64,000 nucleotides of DNA from contig NZ_ASWB01000003.1 of NCBI RefSeq assembly GCF_000407445.1, positions 434,001 to 498,000 of the forward strand, read 5' to 3'. Of the stretch, positions 965 to 13,311 are shown piece after piece (within the stretch, counting starts at the first letter, position 1; every line of letters begins with the position of its first letter). The position numbers were made by a program, and so were the translations under genes. The notes under the pieces are model-generated. The model made no database searches and was not told the origin of the DNA. It saw only the letters and a program-made list of their open reading frames with translations. The stretch comes from Enterococcus moraviensis ATCC BAA-383 (GTDB taxonomy: Bacteria > Bacillota > Bacilli > Lactobacillales > Enterococcaceae).

Positions 965-1807
965 TTGATCAATTCTTTAACAGATACAGTTTCATTAAAC
1001 AATGAGGTAAATATGCCAGGTTTTGGTCTTGGTGTATTTCAAGTAAGCAATGACGATACGATATTATCTGTCCAAAAAGCGATTGAGGCTGGTTACACCA
1101 GTATTGATACTGCACAAATTTACGAAAATGAAGCAGGTGTTGCCGAAGGGATACGTCGTGGTTTAGCTTCTACTGGCAAATCTCGAGAAGATCTTTTTAT
1201 CACAAGTAAAGTATGGAACCATCATTTAAGTTACGATCAAACCATCGAGGCTTATCACGACAGTTTGACCAAATTAGGCTTGGATTATTTAGATCTTTAC
1301 TTGATCCACTGGCCTGGAAATAATGCGTTCTTAACCTCTTGGTCTGCTATGGAAGATTTGTACTTTAGTGGAAAAATCAAGGCCATCGGTGTTAGCAACT
1401 TTGAAATCCACCATCTACAAACATTGCTTGAAACAGCACGAATTACACCTGTGATCAATCAGGTGGAGCTTCATCCAAGAATGGCACAAAAAGAAATTCG
1501 AGCTTTCGGAAAAGAAAAAGGAATTTTGACTGAAGCATGGTCTCCACTTATGCAAGGTCAATTGTTAAAAGACGAAACCATTTTGGCAATTGCCAAAAAA
1601 CATCAAAAATCTGCAGCACAAATTATTTTAAGATGGCATGTCCAAAATGAGATTGTTGTGATTCCAAAATCCGTTAAGGACTCTCGAATTAAAAGTAATG
1701 CTGCCATATTTGATTTTGAATTATCAGAAGAAGAGTTGCGCATGATTGACAAACTAGATGATGGAACCCGTGTTGGTCCACATCCAGATAAATTCTTCTT
1801 TGACTAA
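965..1807 (+). CDS. Aldo/keto reductase
   Basis: A 280-residue AKR-fold NADPH-dependent carbonyl reductase, close to the family's usual 275-280 residues. The catalytic tetrad is visible: Asp in YTSIDTAQIY, Tyr in the same motif, Lys in LFITSKVWN and His in YLIHWP. The cofactor segment VVIPKSVKDSRIKSN lies near the C-terminus. The frame is open further upstream, but those residues are unlike AKR sequence and the only good ribosome site, AGGAAGAGG at 952-960, sits 4 bases before TTG at 965, so a TTG start is chosen. It runs as an operon with the dehydrogenase 22 bases downstream; the expected role is aldehyde or ketone detoxification. The natural substrate cannot be read from sequence. Confidence 0.9.
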   Translation: MINSLTDTVSLNNEVNMPGFGLGVFQVSNDDTILSVQKAIEAGYTSIDTAQIYENEAGVAEGIRRGLASTGKSREDLFITSKVWNHHLSYDQTIEAYHDSLTKLGLDYLDLYLIHWPGNNAFLTSWSAMEDLYFSGKIKAIGVSNFEIHHLQTLLETARITPVINQVELHPRMAQKEIRAFGKEKGILTEAWSPLMQGQLLKDETILAIAKKHQKSAAQIILRWHVQNEIVVIPKSVKDSRIKSNAAIFDFELSEEELRMIDKLDDGTRVGPHPDKFFFD

Positions 1808-1829
1808 ACTAGTGTAAGGAGCTATTCGA

Positions 1830-2624
1830 ATGGAAATGAATATCAAAGGAAAAGTGGCACTAGTGACTGGCTCAACAAAAGGAATTGGCAAAGCAATCGC
1901 AATTGAGCTAGCAAAAGAAGGCGCACATGTCTTGATCAACGGCCGCAATGAACACGAGGTCACAACCTTCGTTACCGAATTAAAAGAACGGTTTCCCGAA
2001 ACGTCGCCTCAAGCGGCCGTTGGGGATTTAGTTTCTGTTAATGATCGTCACCGTTTATTTGAGCAGTTTCCTCATGTGGATATTCTGATCAATAACATGG
2101 GAATTTTTCAACCTATGGCTTACGAAGATATCGACGATGAGACTTGGGAAACTTTTTTCCGTACAAATGTGCTTGCCGCTAACTCACTAGTCAAATTCTA
2201 TTTACCAAACATGTTAAAAGAAAACTTCGGCAGAGTTCTCTTTATTGCTAGTGAGGAAGCGATCATGCCTTCAGGCGAAATGCCACAATACAGTATGACA
2301 AAAACGATGCAACTTTCGTTAGCCAAAAGCTTATCCAAGCTGACCAAAGGGACACATGTAACGGTCAATACGATTCTACCAGGCTCCACAATGACCGAAG
2401 GCGTGCGTGATATGCTCGAGGAAATGTACCCTGATCCCGCACTGTCATTAGCGGATAAAGAAAACCTATTTATGGTGAATAACCGCCCTTTATCACAAAT
2501 TCAACGATTGATCGATCCAAAAGAAATCGGACGTTTGGCCGCGTTTATTAGCAGTCCCTATGCATCTGCTTTTAGTGGAGCCGCCATTCGTATGGATGGC
2601 GGGATGGTTCCAACTATATTCTAA
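1830..2624 (+). CDS. Short-chain dehydrogenase/reductase (classical SDR)
   Basis: A 264-residue Rossmann-fold oxidoreductase. The dinucleotide motif TGSTKGIG is at about residues 14-21, NNMG (variant of NNAG) at about 88-91, and the catalytic Tyr-Lys pair is in YSMTK near residue 155, preceded by a Ser in FIASEEA. ATG at 1830 has AAGGAGC at good spacing. It follows the aldo/keto reductase by 22 bases and shares its terminator, so the two probably act on related carbonyl compounds under HxlR control. Substrate unknown. Confidence 0.9.
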   Translation: MEMNIKGKVALVTGSTKGIGKAIAIELAKEGAHVLINGRNEHEVTTFVTELKERFPETSPQAAVGDLVSVNDRHRLFEQFPHVDILINNMGIFQPMAYEDIDDETWETFFRTNVLAANSLVKFYLPNMLKENFGRVLFIASEEAIMPSGEMPQYSMTKTMQLSLAKSLSKLTKGTHVTVNTILPGSTMTEGVRDMLEEMYPDPALSLADKENLFMVNNRPLSQIQRLIDPKEIGRLAAFISSPYASAFSGAAIRMDGGMVPTIF

Positions 2625-2626
2625 GA

Positions 2627-2680
2627 AAAAAGCCAATTGACTTACTATGCTGAATAGTAAGTCAATTGGCTTTTTCTATT
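2627..2680. terminator. Bidirectional terminator between the SDR gene and ftsY
   Basis: A 21-bp perfect inverted repeat (2627-2647 and 2655-2675) with a 7-base loop, an A run on the left and a T run on the right. It can end transcripts from both converging operons. Confidence 0.9.
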
Positions 2681-2681
2681 T

Positions 2682-3914
2682 TTAATCTTCTACTTTCAAT
2701 AATCCTTTAAACAATCCGATAGCAAAATCATTTGCATCAAACGGCTCTAAGTCATCGATTCCTTCTCCAAGTCCAACTAATTTCACGGGAAGATGCAGCT
2801 CATTGCGGATTGCTAAGACGATCCCACCTTTTGCTGTCCCATCTAGTTTTGTTAAGACTAAACCAGTGACATCTGTTGTTTCTTTAAATTGTTTTGCTTG
2901 AGACATCGCATTTTGTCCCGTTGTTGCATCTACTACAAGCAGAACTTCATGTGGCGCGTCTGGTAATTCACGTTGAATGATACGTTTGATTTTTTCCAAT
3001 TCGTTCATCAAATTGACTTTATTTTGCAACCGTCCAGCCGTATCTACCATTAAGATATCCGCCTGTTCAGCTTTAGCACGTTCCACTGCATCAAATACAA
3101 CCGCAGCTGGATCTCCGCCAGCCTTGCCACGAACAACTTCTACACCAGCACGCTCTCCCCAGACAACTAATTGATCGATAGCGCCTGCTCTAAAGGTATC
3201 CGCTGCTGCCATTAAAACTTTTTTGCCGTCCTGCTTGAATTCATGTGCTAGTTTTCCGATACTGGTCGTTTTCCCAACACCATTGACTCCTACAAACAGC
3301 ATGACTGTTAGGCCATTTTCTTGAATATTCAACGCATTGTTTTCTTCAATACCTTCTGCTTCGTACAAATCAACCATTTTTTCAATGATTGTATTTTGAA
3401 CTGCAGCTGGCTTTTTCACGTTGCGTAACTTCACTTCTTGACGGAGTGACTCAGTGATTTTTATCGCTGTATCAAAACCAACATCGGCACCAATCAAGGT
3501 TTCTTCTAATTCTTCAAAGAAATCTTCATCGACTGAACGGAAATTAGCAAATAACTCATTCAAACGCTCACCAAATGTTTTACGTGTTTTTTCCAAGCCT
3601 TTTTCATATTTTTCTTGTACAACAAGTTCCTCTTCAGGTTCTTCAATGATTTCTGGTTCTGGTTCTACAAGTTCTTCTGTTTGACTAACAGGATCGTTAG
3701 GGATCAAAGGCTCTAGTTCAGTTTCAGCGGCTGCCTCTTCGGCTGTTTCAAGAGAAGCTGACTGTTCTTGTTTCAGCGTTTCTTGATCCACTTGATTTGC
3801 TACTGCATCTTCTTCTGGAACGGTTTCTATCAGCTCTTCGTCTGTTTTTATTTCAGCAGGCGGTGTTTCTTTTTCGTTCATAAAGGCCTTTTTTATTTTA
3901 TCGAAAAATCCCAT
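2682..3914 (-). CDS. ftsY: Signal recognition particle receptor FtsY
   Basis: A 410-residue SRP receptor GTPase that docks the SRP-ribosome complex at the membrane for co-translational insertion. Residues 1-100 form the acidic, Glu-rich A domain. The NG domain follows: P-loop [44 protein letters not shown], and the C-terminal [16 protein letters not shown] at 3914 follows GAGGAGGG. It is the last gene of rnc-smc-HAD-ftsY and its start abuts the stop of the HAD gene, an order common in Firmicutes, where smc and ftsY are neighbours. Confidence 0.97.
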
Positions 3915-4742
3915 TTAATTCCCTCCTCTCAATGGTTCTAAGACAAATTTTTCAATAGCTTGTGCTACGCCGTCATTGTCGTTTGTGTCTGTGATCACAT
4001 CAGCCATTTCCTTAACTTTAGCAACTGCATTGTCCATCGCTACACCAAGTCCTGCATATTCAATCATTGGTAAATCATTTTCTTCATCACCGATCGTCAT
4101 GATTTCTTCTTGTTTGATGTCTAAGTCTCTAGCTAATAATGAAATCCCATACGCTTTCGTAATTCCTTTAGGCATAAATTCTAAAAGATTGCTTCTTGTT
4201 TTGATGATTTCATAGCGTTCATAAAATGAAGCTGGTATTTGTTTGATTTGTTCATCTAAATACGTCTCATCCACTGCAACAACTGCCTTATTGTAAATTC
4301 TATCAATAGTCAATTGAGCTATTTCGTAAGGCTCAAATGTCAGTAGTTTGTTTAATTGGCTGTATAAGGATTTATACTCCTGTGTTGTTGGTAATTGTAA
4401 CACGAGTCCGTCAGATAAAATATCCAAAGGCACATTCAATGATGTGGCCAACTCAAATAAGTCATGGACATTTTCTAAGGACATAGATGATTTTTCAATA
4501 ATTTCACCTGTATCATTTTTTTGAACTAAACCACCATTGAAGGTGATGCTGTAATCACCGTTATCTTGTAAGTTTAAGGCTTTTAAATAGATACCAATTG
4601 CTGCCAACGGCCGCCCTGTACAAATAACGATTTTCACTCCGGCAGCTTTTGCTTGTGCCAAAGCTGCTTTATTTCTTTCAGAGATTTCTTTTTTACTATC
4701 TAATAATGTGCCATCTAAATCGATAGCGACTAATTTAATCAA
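3915..4742 (-). CDS. Cof-type HAD-IIB phosphatase
   Basis: A 275-residue haloacid dehalogenase phosphatase of the Cof/YidA type. The nucleophile motif is DLDGTLL at residues 8-14, CTGRP is motif II, a Lys precedes the last motif (GITKAYG), and GDEENDLPM is the metal-binding motif III. Such enzymes dephosphorylate sugar phosphates or flavin and pyridoxal phosphates; the substrate is not predictable here. The start is TTG with GGGAGG 8 bases upstream. It lies between smc and ftsY with little spacing, so it is co-transcribed, though no functional tie to segregation is known. Confidence 0.9.
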   Translation of the reverse strand: MIKLVAIDLDGTLLDSKKEISERNKAALAQAKAAGVKIVICTGRPLAAIGIYLKALNLQDNGDYSITFNGGLVQKNDTGEIIEKSSMSLENVHDLFELATSLNVPLDILSDGLVLQLPTTQEYKSLYSQLNKLLTFEPYEIAQLTIDRIYNKAVVAVDETYLDEQIKQIPASFYERYEIIKTRSNLLEFMPKGITKAYGISLLARDLDIKQEEIMTIGDEENDLPMIEYAGLGVAMDNAVAKVKEMADVITDTNDNDGVAQAIEKFVLEPLRGGN

Positions 4743-4768
4743 CTTGTCTTGCCTCCCATCAGATAAAT

Positions 4769-7700
4769 CTATGCTTCAGCGACAATGGCGCCGCCCTCTT
4801 TTACTTCTTCCAAACGAACCGAAACGATTTTTGAAACACCTGACTCTTGCATCGTAACGCCATACAATACGTCTGCCGCTTCCATCGTTCCTTTACGGTG
4901 TGTTACTACAATAAACTGCGTATCATCTTCAAATTCACTCAAATAATGCCCAAAACGAGAAACGTTCGCATCATCTAATGCTGCTTCAACTTCATCCAAG
5001 ACACAAAAAGGAACAGGTCTAACACGAATGATCGAGAATAATAATGCAATTGCTGTTAATGCTCGTTCTCCACCAGAAAGCAAGCTTAGGTTTTGTAATT
5101 TTTTGCCTGGAGGTTGCGCTTCGATTTCCACCCCAGTATTTAGTAGATCTTCTGGATTGGTTAAAATCAGCTCCGCTCGACCGCCACCAAACATATTAGG
5201 GAATACGACTTTAAATTGTGCACGAATCGCTTCAAAAACTTCACTGAAGCGGGCTTTGACTTCTTCATCCATTTCACCCATTGTTTCAAACAGCTGCTCT
5301 TTAGCATCTAATAGGTCATCACGCTGAGATACTAAAAACTCATGACGTTCATTGACTTGTTCATATTGTTCGATTGCATTGAGATTGACTGGACCCAAGC
5401 GTTCAATGTCACGTTTCAAGCGTTTTACTTCGATTTTTGCTTGCTCTTTATCGATCGTCAACTCGTAATCTTCATTCGCACGCTCAAAGGTTAAACTATA
5501 TTCTTCTTGCAAGTATTGTAAAGAATTATCCAATTTGATTTCTGAACGATTTTTCTCAACTTCGATTTTCGTTTGTTCCGTCAATAAATGTTGCTGTTGT
5601 TTATTTTCTTCGGCCAAACCAGTATCGATTTGATCGACTTGTCCTTGTAGTTGCTGGCGAGTATTTTTAGCCTCTTGAATACTTGTCTGCAGTTGCTCTT
5701 TTTTCTCGGCAAGTTGCTCTAGTTGAACAGCTAAACTTTCTTCCGTCACCTGATGATCTGTCGAATGATCATTCAATTGTTGTAATTGTTGACGTAAGGC
5801 AGTTTCTCTTGCTAAAAATTCATCAAGCTGTGTTTGCTTCTCTGCTACTTGCTCGGTTAAATGAGCTAATTGTTCTGTTACAACTGCTTGATCCGCTTGC
5901 ACTTGATTAAATCGTTCAAATGCTTCAGCTCGTAATGTTTCCATTTGACTCGCTTCTTGGTCTACTTGCTTCATTTCTTGATCTAAGCGGTCTTTGGTTT
6001 CATTCAGTTCTTGCTGTTGCTCTGTCAATTCTTGTTTTCTCGTTTGATATTCTGTTAAAAATTGATGCAGTTCACGGGCCTCAAATTCAAATAAACGTTG
6101 CTCTTTTGTTAAACGAGTGATGGTTTCTTCTTGGTTTGTTAATTTATTTTGCAATTCTTGTTGTTTTAAACGACTTGTTTCACCCGTTGAACGCAATTGC
6201 TCAAGTTTTTCATTGAGTTCTTTCACTTCATCTGTTAGCTGCTGAACTTCTTTTTCATTGAGTGTTAATTGTTTCTCGACTCGTTCCATCTGCTCAGTCA
6301 ACGTTTGAAGTTCTTGTGTTTGGGAGAATAAACTCCCCTGATTTCCTCGCTTGTTGGCCCCACCTGTCATTGACCCACCTGAGTTCATGACATCACCATC
6401 TAGTGAAACTACACGATACTGATAATTGACCGCTTTTGCTAACTGATTGGCACTTTCAAGTGTTTCAGCTAGTAGCGTCACCCCTAGAAGATTTTGAATT
6501 ACATTACTGACTTCAGTAGAAAAGTGGACTACTTCACTAGCAATTCCAAGAAATCCAGGAATAGTATTGACCCGATCACGTACAGCTCCTGAAACATTTC
6601 TCGGTTTGATCGTAGTTAATGGCAGAAAGGTCGCTCGACCGCTGTGTTGTTGTTTTAAAAACGTAATGCCAGCACGGCCATCTTTTTCTGTCTCTACAAC
6701 GACATGCTGCGCTGCGCCACCTAAAGCTGTTTCAATTGCTAACGTATATTCCTTGGGCACGTCGATTAATTCCGCAACTGCGCCAACGATTCCTGTTAAC
6801 TGGTCTTTATGCTTCAACACGGCTCGAACACCTTGATAAAATCCTGAATAATTCTCTTGGATCTCTTGTAAACTTTTTTGACGTGCTTTCGCTTGTTGAA
6901 CTTGGTTCATCGCTTGATACATTTGCTTTTGTTTTACAGCTAATTGACCTTGTTTTTGATCTAGTTGATGCTTCAATTGAGTATATTGTTCTCTTTGATC
7001 GATCAACGATTGTTCCGACGTAGAAACAGTTTCTTCTAGTCGCTCTTTTTCAGTCAGTGCATCTTGCATTTGTTTCTCTAATGCTTCATGCTTTTCAATT
7101 GATTGTTGATTTTTGGCTGTTTCTTGTTGATACTGACGTTCTAGGTATTTTAAATCATTGGTTGTATTCGCTTGTTCTTGCATCACTTCAACGTATTGAC
7201 TACGTAATTCTTCTAATAATTCTTTTGAAGACTTGCTATATTTTTCAACTTCTAATTCAGATGCTTTGATTTCTTCAACTAATGATTCACGTTGTGCTCT
7301 TTTCTCAGCCACTTTTGCCTGTAGTTCTTGGACTTCTTCACGATAGCGAGTGATTTTCTCCGCATTTTCTTCGAGAGACTGTTGGTATTCACTAGTTGTT
7401 TGCATCGTATGTTTTGAGCGTTCAACTAAGACATCTTTTTGTCCTTCAGTTTGTTTCAAGGCTTCTGTGATTTGGAGAAGTTGTTGTTGCTCCGTTTCGA
7501 CTTTTTCATCCAATTTATTGCGTTTGCTACGTAATTGGAATAATTCATCTTCTGAATCACGGATTTTTTTGCTTGCTATCTGTAGTTTTTCTTCGATTGC
7601 TGCAAGCTCCGCCGTTTTGACTTCCCAAACTTCTTTAGCTGCTTCAATTTCGGTCACGGTTAAACTAACATCGATTTCAGTCAAACTCTCTTTAAGTTTC

Positions 7701-10097: not shown

Positions 10098-11294
10098 TTA
10101 CTCATCGAATAATGTCCTTTTTTTCTTCGCTATCATTGCTACTATAAACAACAATGTTCCCGATACCCCAAATACTGTTTGCACACCAAAGGACTCTGAA
10201 ATCAATCCCATCGATACCGAAGACAATGCAAATGTACCTGTATAAAGTACATTCATTGCAGCATAGATCGGAGCAAGCATGTCTTTTGGAATCGTTTGTT
10301 GTATAGCGGTTGCTTGAGGAATATTTTTGATTTGAGAAAAGATTCCCACAAAGACAGAACAAATCAAAATAAAAACAGGATTCCACCCTGGTGCAACTAA
10401 AAAGGTTACAACTCCGCCGAACAATGAACCCATAATCACAGCTTTCGATTTATGCTGGTTGATCCAATCTGAATTCCGCATTACAATCACACTTCCAACC
10501 ATCGCACCAGCAAAGTAAGTGGCATTTATGTACCCCCACCAACTTTCAGAGACATGTAACACTTCTTTCACATAAACCAAAACAATCGCTGAAACCCAAG
10601 CTGTATTGGCAATGGTTTCAAGAATATCCATTCCGACAACAACCCGAACCAGAGAACACTTGCGAATCCCTTGCCAACCCATAATAAAATTTTCCCATTC
10701 ATTTCTCTCTGATTCCGCGCCTTTAGCAACTTGTGGCAACAGCCATAAAATAATAGCTGACAGCAAAAATAACCCTACATCCAACCACACAAGATTCGTC
10801 ACAGAAAAAATAATCAACAATGATGAACCAATCGCCCAACTACCTATACTAACAACTTGCAGCATCGTACTAAATATACTATTTGCACGAATCAAGTAAT
10901 ACTCCGCCACATAATAAGGAATTAAAGCTGTGCTAACTGGTTCAGCACATCCGTCTAAAAAAGCAATCCCTACGATAAATACATACAAAATAGTTAAGTC
11001 AAGATGCTCGATAGCCACTTGCAAATAAACCGCTAATCCCGCTAAAATCAATGTCTTACACAACTGGCTTATCTGTAAAATTTTTGACAGTGATACTCTT
11101 ACAACAATCAATGGTGTTAACAGTCCTGATAAAACCATACTTCCTGTGATAATAACCGGTACAATAGAAGCCGCTAATGCAGAGTTCGTTAATGTAAATA
11201 CCGAGCTAACGATCGCAATCGTATAAATAGTGTCTCCAATATTGGCAATCATCTGACCTATAATAAGTTTATTGAACGCTTTATTTTTATTCAT
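10098..11294 (-). CDS. MFS efflux transporter, Mef-like
   Basis: A 398-residue polytopic membrane protein with about 12 predicted helices and the arrangement of the MFS_3/macrolide-efflux-type exporters: NKLIIGQMIANIGDTIYTIA at the start, PVSTALIPYY after helix 4, and the long central loop WENFIMGWQGIRK. The likely role is proton-driven export of a drug or amphiphile; the substrate is unknown. ATG at 11294 is preceded by GAAGGTGAG. The gene has a long leader with a three-codon open reading frame and nested hairpins, which suggests inducible expression. The GC content is low, and the gene stands alone between ndk and opp, so it may be acquired. Confidence 0.85.
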   Translation of the reverse strand: MNKNKAFNKLIIGQMIANIGDTIYTIAIVSSVFTLTNSALAASIVPVIITGSMVLSGLLTPLIVVRVSLSKILQISQLCKTLILAGLAVYLQVAIEHLDLTILYVFIVGIAFLDGCAEPVSTALIPYYVAEYYLIRANSIFSTMLQVVSIGSWAIGSSLLIIFSVTNLVWLDVGLFLLSAIILWLLPQVAKGAESERNEWENFIMGWQGIRKCSLVRVVVGMDILETIANTAWVSAIVLVYVKEVLHVSESWWGYINATYFAGAMVGSVIVMRNSDWINQHKSKAVIMGSLFGGVVTFLVAPGWNPVFILICSVFVGIFSQIKNIPQATAIQQTIPKDMLAPIYAAMNVLYTGTFALSSVSMGLISESFGVQTVFGVSGTLLFIVAMIAKKKRTLFDE

Positions 11295-11446
11295 TTTTCT
11301 CACCTTCACTTAGAAGAAACGAAAATTTCGTTCTTCATTTTTTTCGTTCTTGACCAAGTGAAGTATTTTAAATATTCATAAGTAATTTCCTCCAGATTTA
11401 ATAAAAGTTAGTATATTCTTTTATTCGTACCAACTTTTATAATCAT
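11295..11446 (-). promoter_or_regulatory. Structured leader (candidate translational attenuator) of the MFS gene
   Basis: Reading the minus strand from the predicted start near 11446: a hairpin with 13-bp arms (11440-11428 with 11413-11401); a Shine-Dalgarno GGAGGA (11393-11388); a mini open reading frame ATG AAT ATT TAA (11379-11368); then CTTCACTTGG (from 11363), which can pair over 10 bp with CTAAGTGAAG immediately upstream of the MFS ribosome site; and nested inside it a second hairpin with GAAGAACGAAA and TTTCGTTTCTTC arms. There is no T run after the last hairpin, so translational rather than transcriptional control is favoured. Confidence 0.6.
11368..11379 (-). CDS. Leader peptide MNI upstream of the MFS gene
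   Basis: A three-codon open reading frame (Met-Asn-Ile-stop) with a near-perfect ribosome site: GGAGGA with 8 bases to the ATG. It sits at the foot of the RNA structure that masks the MFS ribosome site. Very short leader peptides on which drug-bound ribosomes pause are known upstream of several resistance genes. That this one works the same way is inference. Confidence 0.5.
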   Translation of the reverse strand: MNI

Positions 11447-11452
11447 TTTCTC

Positions 11453-11481
11453 ATATTAATACATTTAGTTCAACCTCTCAA
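11453..11481 (-). promoter_or_regulatory. Promoter of the MFS leader transcript
   Basis: On the minus strand TTGAGA (11481-11476), 17-base spacer, TAATAT (11458-11453). It would start the transcript about 150 bases before the MFS start codon, just ahead of the first leader hairpin. Confidence 0.5.
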
Positions 11482-11483
11482 AG

Positions 11484-11523
11484 AAAAAAGACACCTCCAA
11501 GAAATACTGGAAGTGTCTTTTTT
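11484..11523 (-). terminator. opp operon terminator
   Basis: Arms AAAAAAGACAC-TCCA and TGGA-GTGTCTTTTTT around a short loop, 10 bases after the oppA stop on the minus strand. Confidence 0.85.
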
Positions 11524-11532
11524 CTCAATAAA

Positions 11533-13311
11533 TTAACGTTTTTCTGATGTTAATTCAATGTCATAAAAGTCTTTTGTTTCTTCATAATTCCAAGTAAATG
11601 ATTTCACGCGGTCATTAACTGGCATGATTTCATTACGGTATAATGTTGGAATAACTGGTGCTTGTTCAAACATATACTCTTGCCATGCATCATATGCTTC
11701 TTTACGTTTTGTATCGTCAAATGAAGCTTTTGAATCAATTGCTTTTAACAATTTATCATTTTCTTCTGAAGCAAAACGAGAGTAGTTGAATGCTGCGTTA
11801 CGGCTGTATAATCCTGCTGGTGATGGCGCACTGTTTACACCCCAAGCAGCTTGGAATACGTCGATTTCTGGATCATCATTTTTGATTTTATCATAGAATG
11901 CTTGGAAATCAATCAAACGACCAGTAGCTAATTTCACATCTAATCCAATTTCTTTCCATTGTTGTAGATAGTAATCAGCTAAAGGTTGAGCTGTTTCGCC
12001 ACCTGCCATTGAAGCAAAGTTGATCGTTAATTTTTCGCCCTTAGGATTTTCTCTAAGTCCATCGCCATCTGTATCTTTATAGCCAGCATCATCTAGAATT
12101 TTCTTCGCTTTATCTAGATCATATTGGTAGCCTTTGACATCTGTATTGTGTAATGTTTTGAAGATTGGTGGAATTAATGTTGTCGCACCAGTACGCAACC
12201 CATTATAGAATTTTTGTCCGATTGCATCATTATCCATCGCATAACCCATTGCTTGACGTAATTTCACATCAGCCATTTTTGCATCTGGATTCATGATCAC
12301 TTCGCCTTTTTCTTTATCAAAAGTACCTAGTTTGAATCCAACATAAGTGTATGCTAACTCTTCACGACCTAACATTTGATAGCCTTCTGAATCTTTATAT
12401 GTTGGGAAGTTATCTGTCGGCATTGAGTAAACCATGTCATATTTTTTCGCTTTCACCGCTTCAACGATTGAAGCAGTAGGCACGTTAGTAAATACAATTT
12501 TATCTAATTTAGGTTTTCCTTTGTAGTAATGTTCATTTGGTAAATATTCCACTGATTCACCTGTTACGATTTTACTCATGTAGTAAGGACCGTATGTTAC
12601 AGGATTTTTGCGGACTGCATCACTTTTTTCTTGATCTTTGATCGGAATATCTTTAAAGATATGTTTCGGCATTGCGCTTGTATAAACGCCACCGTCTAAT
12701 TGCAACATACCTGGATTCATTTCTTTATATGTTACTTCGATTGATTGGTCATCCACTTTTTTGATACCAGAAATAGTATCAGCTTTTCCATCATGGTATT
12801 CTTCCATTCCGACAATATTAGTAAAGTTGTCATCATAGCGAATTCCTGTATAATCTTTATTTCCGATTACTTCATATGGATAAATCAAATCATCAGCAGT
12901 TACAGGTTCACCATCTGACCATTTAATATTTTCTTTAAGTGTAATTGTTGCTTTTTTATTATCAACATCTAAATCTAGCTTAGCAGCACCATCATCTGTA
13001 ATAACGAAATCTTCATCATAACCGAACAGTCCTTCATCAGACGGTCTCATATAATGATAGTCATAAGCATCTTGATAATATATCTTAGAGAACAATCCTT
13101 TAAACTGAGTATCTGACGCAACTGCAACTTCCAAAGTCCCGCCTTTGATTGCTTCTTTGTCATTTTTAACCTTCATTGCAAATTTGCTGATATCCTCAGT
13201 TTCTACATTCTTGTTGCCTGAATCTGATTTCTTACCTCCACCACATGCAGCCAATGTTACAGCTACCACTGCTGTCAATGTAATTAAACCCAAAAGTTTT
13301 TTGCTTTTCAC
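11533..13311 (-). CDS. oppA: Oligopeptide ABC transporter substrate-binding lipoprotein
   Basis: A 592-residue SBP_bac_5 family lipoprotein that captures peptides outside the membrane. The signal peptide ends in the lipobox LAAC, with Cys near residue 22, followed by a Gly/Lys/Ser linker. The family signature around LKENIKWSDGEPVTADDLIY (about residues 125-145) is clear, and the C-terminal lobe ends VKSFTWNYEETKDFYDIEL. It is the last gene of oppD-F-B-C-A and the probable ligand-specificity component. In enterococci such proteins may also take up peptide signals; nothing here shows which peptides. Confidence 0.95.
   Translation of the reverse strand: MKSKKLLGLITLTAVVAVTLAACGGGKKSDSGNKNVETEDISKFAMKVKNDKEAIKGGTLEVAVASDTQFKGLFSKIYYQDAYDYHYMRPSDEGLFGYDEDFVITDDGAAKLDLDVDNKKATITLKENIKWSDGEPVTADDLIYPYEVIGNKDYTGIRYDDNFTNIVGMEEYHDGKADTISGIKKVDDQSIEVTYKEMNPGMLQLDGGVYTSAMPKHIFKDIPIKDQEKSDAVRKNPVTYGPYYMSKIVTGESVEYLPNEHYYKGKPKLDKIVFTNVPTASIVEAVKAKKYDMVYSMPTDNFPTYKDSEGYQMLGREELAYTYVGFKLGTFDKEKGEVIMNPDAKMADVKLRQAMGYAMDNDAIGQKFYNGLRTGATTLIPPIFKTLHNTDVKGYQYDLDKAKKILDDAGYKDTDGDGLRENPKGEKLTINFASMAGGETAQPLADYYLQQWKEIGLDVKLATGRLIDFQAFYDKIKNDDPEIDVFQAAWGVNSAPSPAGLYSRNAAFNYSRFASEENDKLLKAIDSKASFDDTKRKEAYDAWQEYMFEQAPVIPTLYRNEIMPVNDRVKSFTWNYEETKDFYDIELTSEKR

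Follow-up and report, generated by a model that had tools for sequence, protein, structure and literature searches.

We analysed a stretch of 64,000 nucleotides from Enterococcus moraviensis ATCC BAA-383 (assembly GCF_000407445.1, contig NZ_ASWB01000003.1, positions 434,001 to 498,000 of the forward strand), hereafter the window, which encodes on its minus strand an exporter of the major facilitator superfamily (MFS) preceded by a leader with a three-codon open reading frame (ORF). The exporter gene stands alone, flanked by oligopeptide-uptake genes and ndk/rnc (gene names assigned by eye); upstream of its promoter-like site, a gene for an oligopeptide-binding protein ends and is followed by a terminator-like hairpin that carries a T run and has a loop larger than the terminator scan allows (11523–11485, by eye), and a stem-loop region of 60 nt separates the leader ORF from the exporter (Table 1). 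A cis-acting attenuator of some kind is very probable at this locus. In comparative sequence analysis, the conservation of the ORF, its stop position and the stem, together with compensatory changes, gives strong support to translational attenuation by way of a mini leader ORF.

Table 1. Elements of the exporter locus, in positions of the window
Feature	Position	Strand	Remarks
Sigma-A-type promoter-like site, TTGAGA, 17 bp, TAATAT	11481–11476 and 11458–11453	minus	Consensus match only, 9/12
Hairpin at transcript 5' end, 13-bp inner helix	11395–11444	minus	Folding
Ribosome-binding site of leader ORF, GGAGG	11389–11393	minus	9 nt before leader ATG
Leader ORF, ATG AAT ATT TAA	11368–11379	minus	MNI; across relatives MNI, MNS, MNRR, MNQTK, MRRI or MRQI, each followed by a stop
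Arm A, CTTCACTTGG	11354–11363	minus	5' side of repressing outer stem; begins 4 nt past leader stop
Segment B1, AAGAACGAAA	11342–11351	minus	First alternative partner of C
Segment B2, GAAGAACGAA	11327–11336	minus	Second alternative partner of C
Segment C, TTCGTTTCTTC	11313–11323	minus	Pairs with B1 or B2
Arm D, CTAAGTGAAG	11304–11313	minus	3' side of outer stem; pairs with arm A
MFS exporter gene, 398 aa	10098–11294	minus	Pfam MFS_1 above cut-off

A preliminary description of this DNA had listed the promoter, the 13-bp hairpin at the 5' end of the mRNA, a good ribosome-binding site for the leader ORF and two alternative nested stems, the outer one of 10 bp beside the ribosome-binding site of the exporter, and all of these are present. 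The final bases of arm D overlap the start of that site, AAGGTGAG (11306–11299). Promoter matches of 9/12 are not rare, 15 occurring in 3 kb against 11.6 in shuffled sequence. A hairpin of different sequence takes the place of the 5' hairpin in a second Enterococcus group (alignments inspected by eye; weak in locus L002), and the element possibly serves in mRNA protection. No terminator-like site was found between promoter and gene on the minus strand in a scan restricted to loops of 3–8, and no T run was seen by eye after either stem.

Comparison with relatives, which the preliminary description had named as one test of its proposal, showed that the mini-frame and the stems are conserved and that the stems covary. 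Matches to the exporter (E 0.001, distant MFS proteins included) occurred in 21 of 60 related genomes. Within the genus, 10 of the 22 genomes carried the exporter at an identity of at least 57%, and the mini-ORF and stem accompany it in all ten; named copies are those of E. caccae, E. termitis, E. crotali, E. ureasiticus and Enterococcus sp. DIV0212c. A covariance model detected the leader in 12 of 105 genomes of the family (the ten of the genus plus G101 and G103) and gave 15 matches in 395 genomes of a sample of the order, one of them by chance in a coding frame. Newly found by this model were leaders in G101 (peptide MNRR), in G103 (MNQTK) and in genus g28, where five genomes carry it, one with MRRI, two with MRQI and two in decayed form. 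A second model, applied to 398 genomes of the class, recovered the leader in four, none of them new. Each accepted match precedes this exporter or its remains. The chance match in a coding frame is that of G250; weak matches at L055 (inside a coding frame), at L038 and at E values of 0.2–0.9 were likewise rejected as chance. Because the covariance-model searches of family, order and class gave no others, the leader appears confined, within the searches and strict filters used, to the family of the window and one other genus of its order. Among the 33 genomes with an exporter match, upstream regions were read in all except G155, G228 and G230; no comparable leader occurs in the 200 nt read upstream of the exporters L056, L057, L013 and those of f3 (L061–L074).

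From leader ATG to exporter ATG, the E. caccae leader (L004) is identical to that of the window at 85 of 85 bases, as compared with 86% identity in the 76 nt upstream and 69% at third codon positions of the exporter; the corresponding values for L005 are 85 of 85, 79% and 68%. In genus g28 the exporter is deleted or broken in three of the five leader-bearing genomes, being internally deleted in L052 and L054 and frame-broken in L053. The leader is intact in L052, has no stop in L053 and has lost both frame and ribosome-binding site in L054; since leaders in both states accompany a damaged exporter, gene loss seems, from these few sequences, to precede leader decay.

All 17 leaders form the eight core pairs of the outer stem, and three of these pairs show double changes, in an alignment that was fitted to this stem. 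In an unfitted MAFFT alignment of 16 leaders the outer stem was again 100% paired, 96.6% of cells were paired for the outer and B2:C stems combined, and double changes fell at 6 of 13 pairs of the outer and inner stems, a value that none of 500 shuffles reached; shifting the pairing partner by one to three columns lowered the proportion of paired cells to 41–61%. The B2:C stem by itself had 91.3% of cells paired and double changes at three of five counted pairs. Two alternative inner stems can form in each of the 16 leaders, B2:C at −6.1 to −8.3 kcal/mol and the weaker B1:C at −2.5 to −6.2 kcal/mol in 15 of them (−0.3 in L053, which has the broken exporter frame). Two features of an attenuator are accordingly found, namely alternative RNA structures, one of which covers the ribosome-binding site of the exporter (predicted, and backed by covariation), and a short leader ORF with its own ribosome-binding site across lineages, its translation being predicted.

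The 212-nt leader of the window folds with a z-score of −3.6 (1 of 200 shuffles equally stable) and its 104-nt core with −2.5 (3 of 200). When the 200 nt before the exporter were dinucleotide-shuffled 5000 times, 22 of the shuffles passed a layout screen that demanded a mini-ORF with ribosome-binding site, a gap of 3–7 nt and an 8-bp arm reaching the ribosome-binding site of the gene. Applied to the window and the retrieved loci, with 532 candidate starts for 286 ORFs, the screen gave 14 positives, of which 13 are the leader of this exporter, in 13 genomes, and one is unrelated; it was incomplete, at least the E. caccae copy being missed. The positive at about 55050 on the plus strand of the window combines a mini-ORF of two codons with an 8-bp arm that extends to the ribosome-binding site, the downstream ORF being just 87 aa long, and is probably a chance match. 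The decisive evidence for the leader, as read from these sequences, is conservation and covariation among relatives.

The leader peptides vary (MNI, MNS, MNRR, MNQTK, MRRI and MRQI), and ATG and stop are retained in five lineages despite differing sense codons, with a ribosome-binding site that is mostly recognisable (weak in L049). The distance from AUG to arm A in these lineages is 16, 17, 19, 22 and 19 nt and that from stop to arm 4, 5, 4, 4 and 4 nt. Because the latter is fixed at 4–5 nt while peptides and AUG distance vary, we infer that the stop codon occupies the A site of the regulatory ribosome, in contrast to vmlR, for which stalling at the start codon is reported. The 30S toeprint is reported to lie about 16 nt from the first base of the P-site codon (PMC9226507). 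With this distance, a ribosome whose P site holds the last sense codon would, in the window, cover arm A over seven bases. A partition-function folding model with ribosome masking was run on 11 of the 17 leaders, and in all 11 a ribosome at the last sense codon lowered the predicted cost of opening the exporter start, from 3.9–8.3 kcal/mol when free to 0.5–5.8 kcal/mol when masked, the gain in L048 being just 0.8 kcal/mol.

On balance we lean towards a mechanism in which the sensing position is the stop codon of the leader. In the resting transcript, arm A would be paired with arm D and B1 with C nested within, so that the ribosome-binding site of the exporter is hidden. The strong site of the mini-ORF would load ribosomes, which would form two to four peptide bonds before reaching the stop and would quickly depart. 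A ribosome retained at the end of the mini-ORF, with the last sense codon in the P site and the stop in the A site, would cover arm A over about 7 of its 10 bases; arm D would be freed, B2:C would keep the intervening RNA folded and the exporter would be translated. The nascent peptide would be of little importance, the conserved element being the position of the stop codon. Given such a stop-anchored mechanism, the signal is likely to be a ribosome-targeting compound. That the inducer is a ribosome-targeting antibiotic or peptide which this MFS protein also exports would be a further inference, outside the confidence placed in the mechanism.

Two more distant exporter relatives have leaders with an apparent ORF of ATG TAA, a start directly followed by a stop. 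In L034, on a Lacticaseibacillus paracasei plasmid (exporter 42% identical; leader upstream of 2998), an arm beginning 1 nt past the stop is predicted to pair over the ribosome-binding site of the exporter (probability 0.8–1.0), and in L059 (genome G107, exporter 33% identical) an arm beginning 3 nt past the stop is predicted to pair over the exporter start codon (probability 0.5–0.8). As modelled, these start-stop ORFs are suggestive only. An apparent start-stop ORF followed by such an arm also stands upstream of the exporter in L086 and L087. Another exporter relative (L060, genome G251) is preceded by an eleven-residue leader ORF (MPNQLVTHSII) that runs into a hairpin, CTCCATTAT...ATAATGGAG, over the ribosome-binding site; by its sequence this is a different attenuator on a related exporter.

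Several observations weigh against a conserved, stop-anchored attenuator. In one of the five covariation measures, that of further standard pair types, 492 of 500 shuffles equalled or exceeded the real alignment; the structure scored on the unfitted alignment came from that same alignment. Folding of the L006 leader is indistinguishable from that of shuffles (z −0.02). L002, whose protein is 96% identical to that of the window, differs from it at four of the 85 leader bases (81 of 85 identical), so that its leader (95%) is barely more conserved than its third codon positions (92%). Stop-anchoring is based on five lineages, and in one of these, L049, the exporter is frameshifted; since the gap between stop and arm is short, fewer indels are expected in it than in the ORF; and the peptide is not wholly free, because Asn2 is common to all leaders found in Enterococcaceae (MNI, MNS, MNRR and MNQTK). 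As to the start-stop ORFs, the one further copy of L059 (in two of four genomes) is 98% identical in protein and offers no independent conservation, and neither the plasmid collection nor 18 genomes from G230's family, which is perhaps not L034's own, contained the L034 leader a second time. The modelled optimum is the penultimate sense codon in L048 and L050 and the second codon in L004. For six of the seven modelled three-codon leaders the opening cost also drops, by 0.6–4.3 kcal/mol, with a ribosome on the AUG; in the window such a ribosome extends to the first base of arm A, and the cost falls from 8.3 to 5.5 kcal/mol.

This effect of an AUG-bound ribosome is what would be expected if a pleuromutilin, lincosamide or streptogramin A stalled the ribosome early in the mini-ORF, on its start codon or first codons, as in attenuators of the vmlR/cplR type, the position of the stop being incidental, an explanation that we consider possible although rather unlikely. 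The preliminary description had regarded a three-residue leader as unusually short, which does not hold, as the upstream ORFs (uORFs) described in the published accounts drawn on here are of three to four residues and loosely constrained sequence: MIN for vmlR, MR[I/M] for cplR, MK[L/Q] for vmlR2 and MAGN for lsaA (PMC10201436, PMC9226507). Lincomycin and retapamulin induce vmlR and cplR, and such drugs are reported to stall ribosomes likely at start codons (PMC12121999). Against this stands the spacing from AUG to arm of 16–22 nt, which leaves an AUG-stalled ribosome short of the arm in the four- and five-codon leaders. In the model, the AUG ribosome did not lower the opening cost in L048, L050 and L051 and gave no appreciable drop in L006 and L049, the drop in the MNQTK leader being 0.5 kcal/mol.

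The stems bear on an improbable explanation, that of a drug-independent minigene, translation of which transiently opens the stem, protects the mRNA or both, and which sets a basal level or reads out translation capacity. A two-codon minigene is described as boosting txe translation in cis, with an effect of the distance from its stop (PMC8708949), but in the present leader conservation across families extends to the outer stem and to two competing inner stems, which would be needless for a simple loading site. Arrest that depends on the peptide, caused by a macrolide, phenicol or oxazolidinone in the style of erm and cat leaders, is very unlikely, as six different peptides of three to five residues occur with a common layout and share Met only, plus Asn2 in one family. 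Of the ribosome-stalling attenuator put forward in the preliminary description, the mini-ORF attenuator is backed by conservation and compensatory changes, and stalling of the peptide-specific erm type is unlikely, because peptide sequence and length vary while the stop position is fixed. A switch of structure only (a thermometer or a protein-binding or metabolite-sensing RNA) with a fortuitous mini-ORF would agree with the stem being the most conserved part of the leader, but is exceedingly unlikely in view of the retained ATG and stop, and Rfam gave no match at gathering score in the window (six weak sub-threshold matches in 11100–11700).

The best NCBIfam match of the exporter is to the ryptide export family NF041056 (246.9 bits against a cut-off of 575), and from this score it is a relative, not a member, of that family. 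It is not a Mef macrolide exporter by the scores to Mef(En2) and Mef(B), 24.5 and 21.3 bits against a cut-off of 800. Plasmids yielded 41 records with exporter relatives, all below 60% identity and the best at 42%; no relative was found in phages at E 1e-5, and a PDB sequence search gave no match at E 0.01. Ryptide-type MFS exporters sit in radical S-adenosylmethionine (SAM) operons for ribosomally synthesised and post-translationally modified peptides (RiPPs), whereas the gene of the window is alone, with its own promoter-like site and attenuator. In a phylogenetic tree, the leader-bearing exporters fell in one group (support 91/93) together with the leaderless L056 and L057 and with L079, long branches being flagged.

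At L079 (genome G028, 1416–7435), an Rgg-like regulator (27 bits, cut-off 37), transposase-like ORFs and a small precursor-like ORF (both by eye), a radical SAM/SPASM gene and a split, leaderless exporter are found, the exporter directly after the radical SAM gene, and the locus is by its gene content a candidate radical-SAM RiPP locus. An Rgg-family gene (51 bits, above cut-off) also lies near the exporter in G056. In E. termitis and E. crotali a SPASM-like C-terminal fragment stands directly upstream of the leader (L030 2532–2792 and L032 2567–2818; by eye), and is a possible remnant of a RiPP operon. Among loci L006–L010 a SPASM-like relic, recognised by eye from its cysteines, precedes the leader in L006, L008 and L010 only. 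In S. thermophilus the ryptide operon is reported to be reduced to the transporter in 264 of 265 strains (PMC12445099). Lone exporters of the ryptide type are by this account common in that species, and a role of the present exporter in immunity or in the export of foreign peptides is, by analogy, plausible for this reason. On the S. aureus plasmid pPH1-1 (L035, typed mobilizable) an MFS relative (32% identity) adjoins two genes annotated as encoding HEXXH-motif putative peptide modification proteins. Elsewhere in the genome of the window, an Lsa-family ABC-F gene (L089, G000:C2:737837-739312; 781 bits against a cut-off of 750) has upstream of it a very long leader hairpin and candidate ORFs of two to three codons, and may from its sequence be a second attenuator with a mini-uORF.

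A wider proposal, which we regard as quite doubtful, is that the leader is a peptide-independent sensor of termination, down to the bare start-stop ORFs of distant relatives, and turns on an orphan exporter whose ancestry lies in a radical-SAM peptide operon, the natural signal being a ribosome-targeting RiPP or a termination inhibitor from neighbours, which the exporter would remove. If the stop-anchored mechanism is right, the exporter family would join the genes switched on through ribosome arrest, by a leader design that senses at the stop codon and not at the peptide or the start codon; inhibitors of termination or of early elongation could be detected with the leader as a simple reporter; and there would be a hint that RiPPs of the ryptide-exporter class, or competitors, target ribosomes. 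Read conservatively, the locus points to an inducible exporter in several Enterococcus species that the papers retrieved do not describe, and no description of this leader was met among the papers listed in literature searches covering titles and the starts of abstracts.

Among known systems, those of vmlR, cplR, vmlR2 and lsaA, all antibiotic resistance (ARE) ABC-F genes, resemble the present leader in having a uORF of three to four residues that vary, and vmlR and cplR also in a downstream structure that hides the ribosome-binding site of the gene. These two are reported to combine transcription termination with masking of the ribosome-binding site and to respond to arrest of the initiating ribosome, whereas in the present leader a terminator was not found and the anchoring is to the stop; the controlled gene is moreover an MFS exporter and not an ARE ABC-F gene. 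The comparison drawn here is one of design. The msrD leader MsrDL (MYLIFM) is alike in that the regulatory ribosome has UAA in its A site, but there the peptide and a macrolide cause the arrest and a terminator is bypassed, whereas the peptides of the present leader vary. In attenuators of the erm type and in toiL-topAI a ribosome on the leader ORF likewise frees a hidden ribosome-binding site by RNA rearrangement. The erm leaders are longer than the present one and, unlike it, peptide-specific, and the toiL leader is also longer, with eight codons. The txe minigene mg2 is similar in its very short upstream ORF and in the relevance of the stop distance, although its model, as set out in the part of the report drawn on, is without a conserved masking stem. 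The present leader thus shares the tiny ORF with the vmlR/cplR group and, if the reading of its stop codon is right, the stop position with MsrDL.
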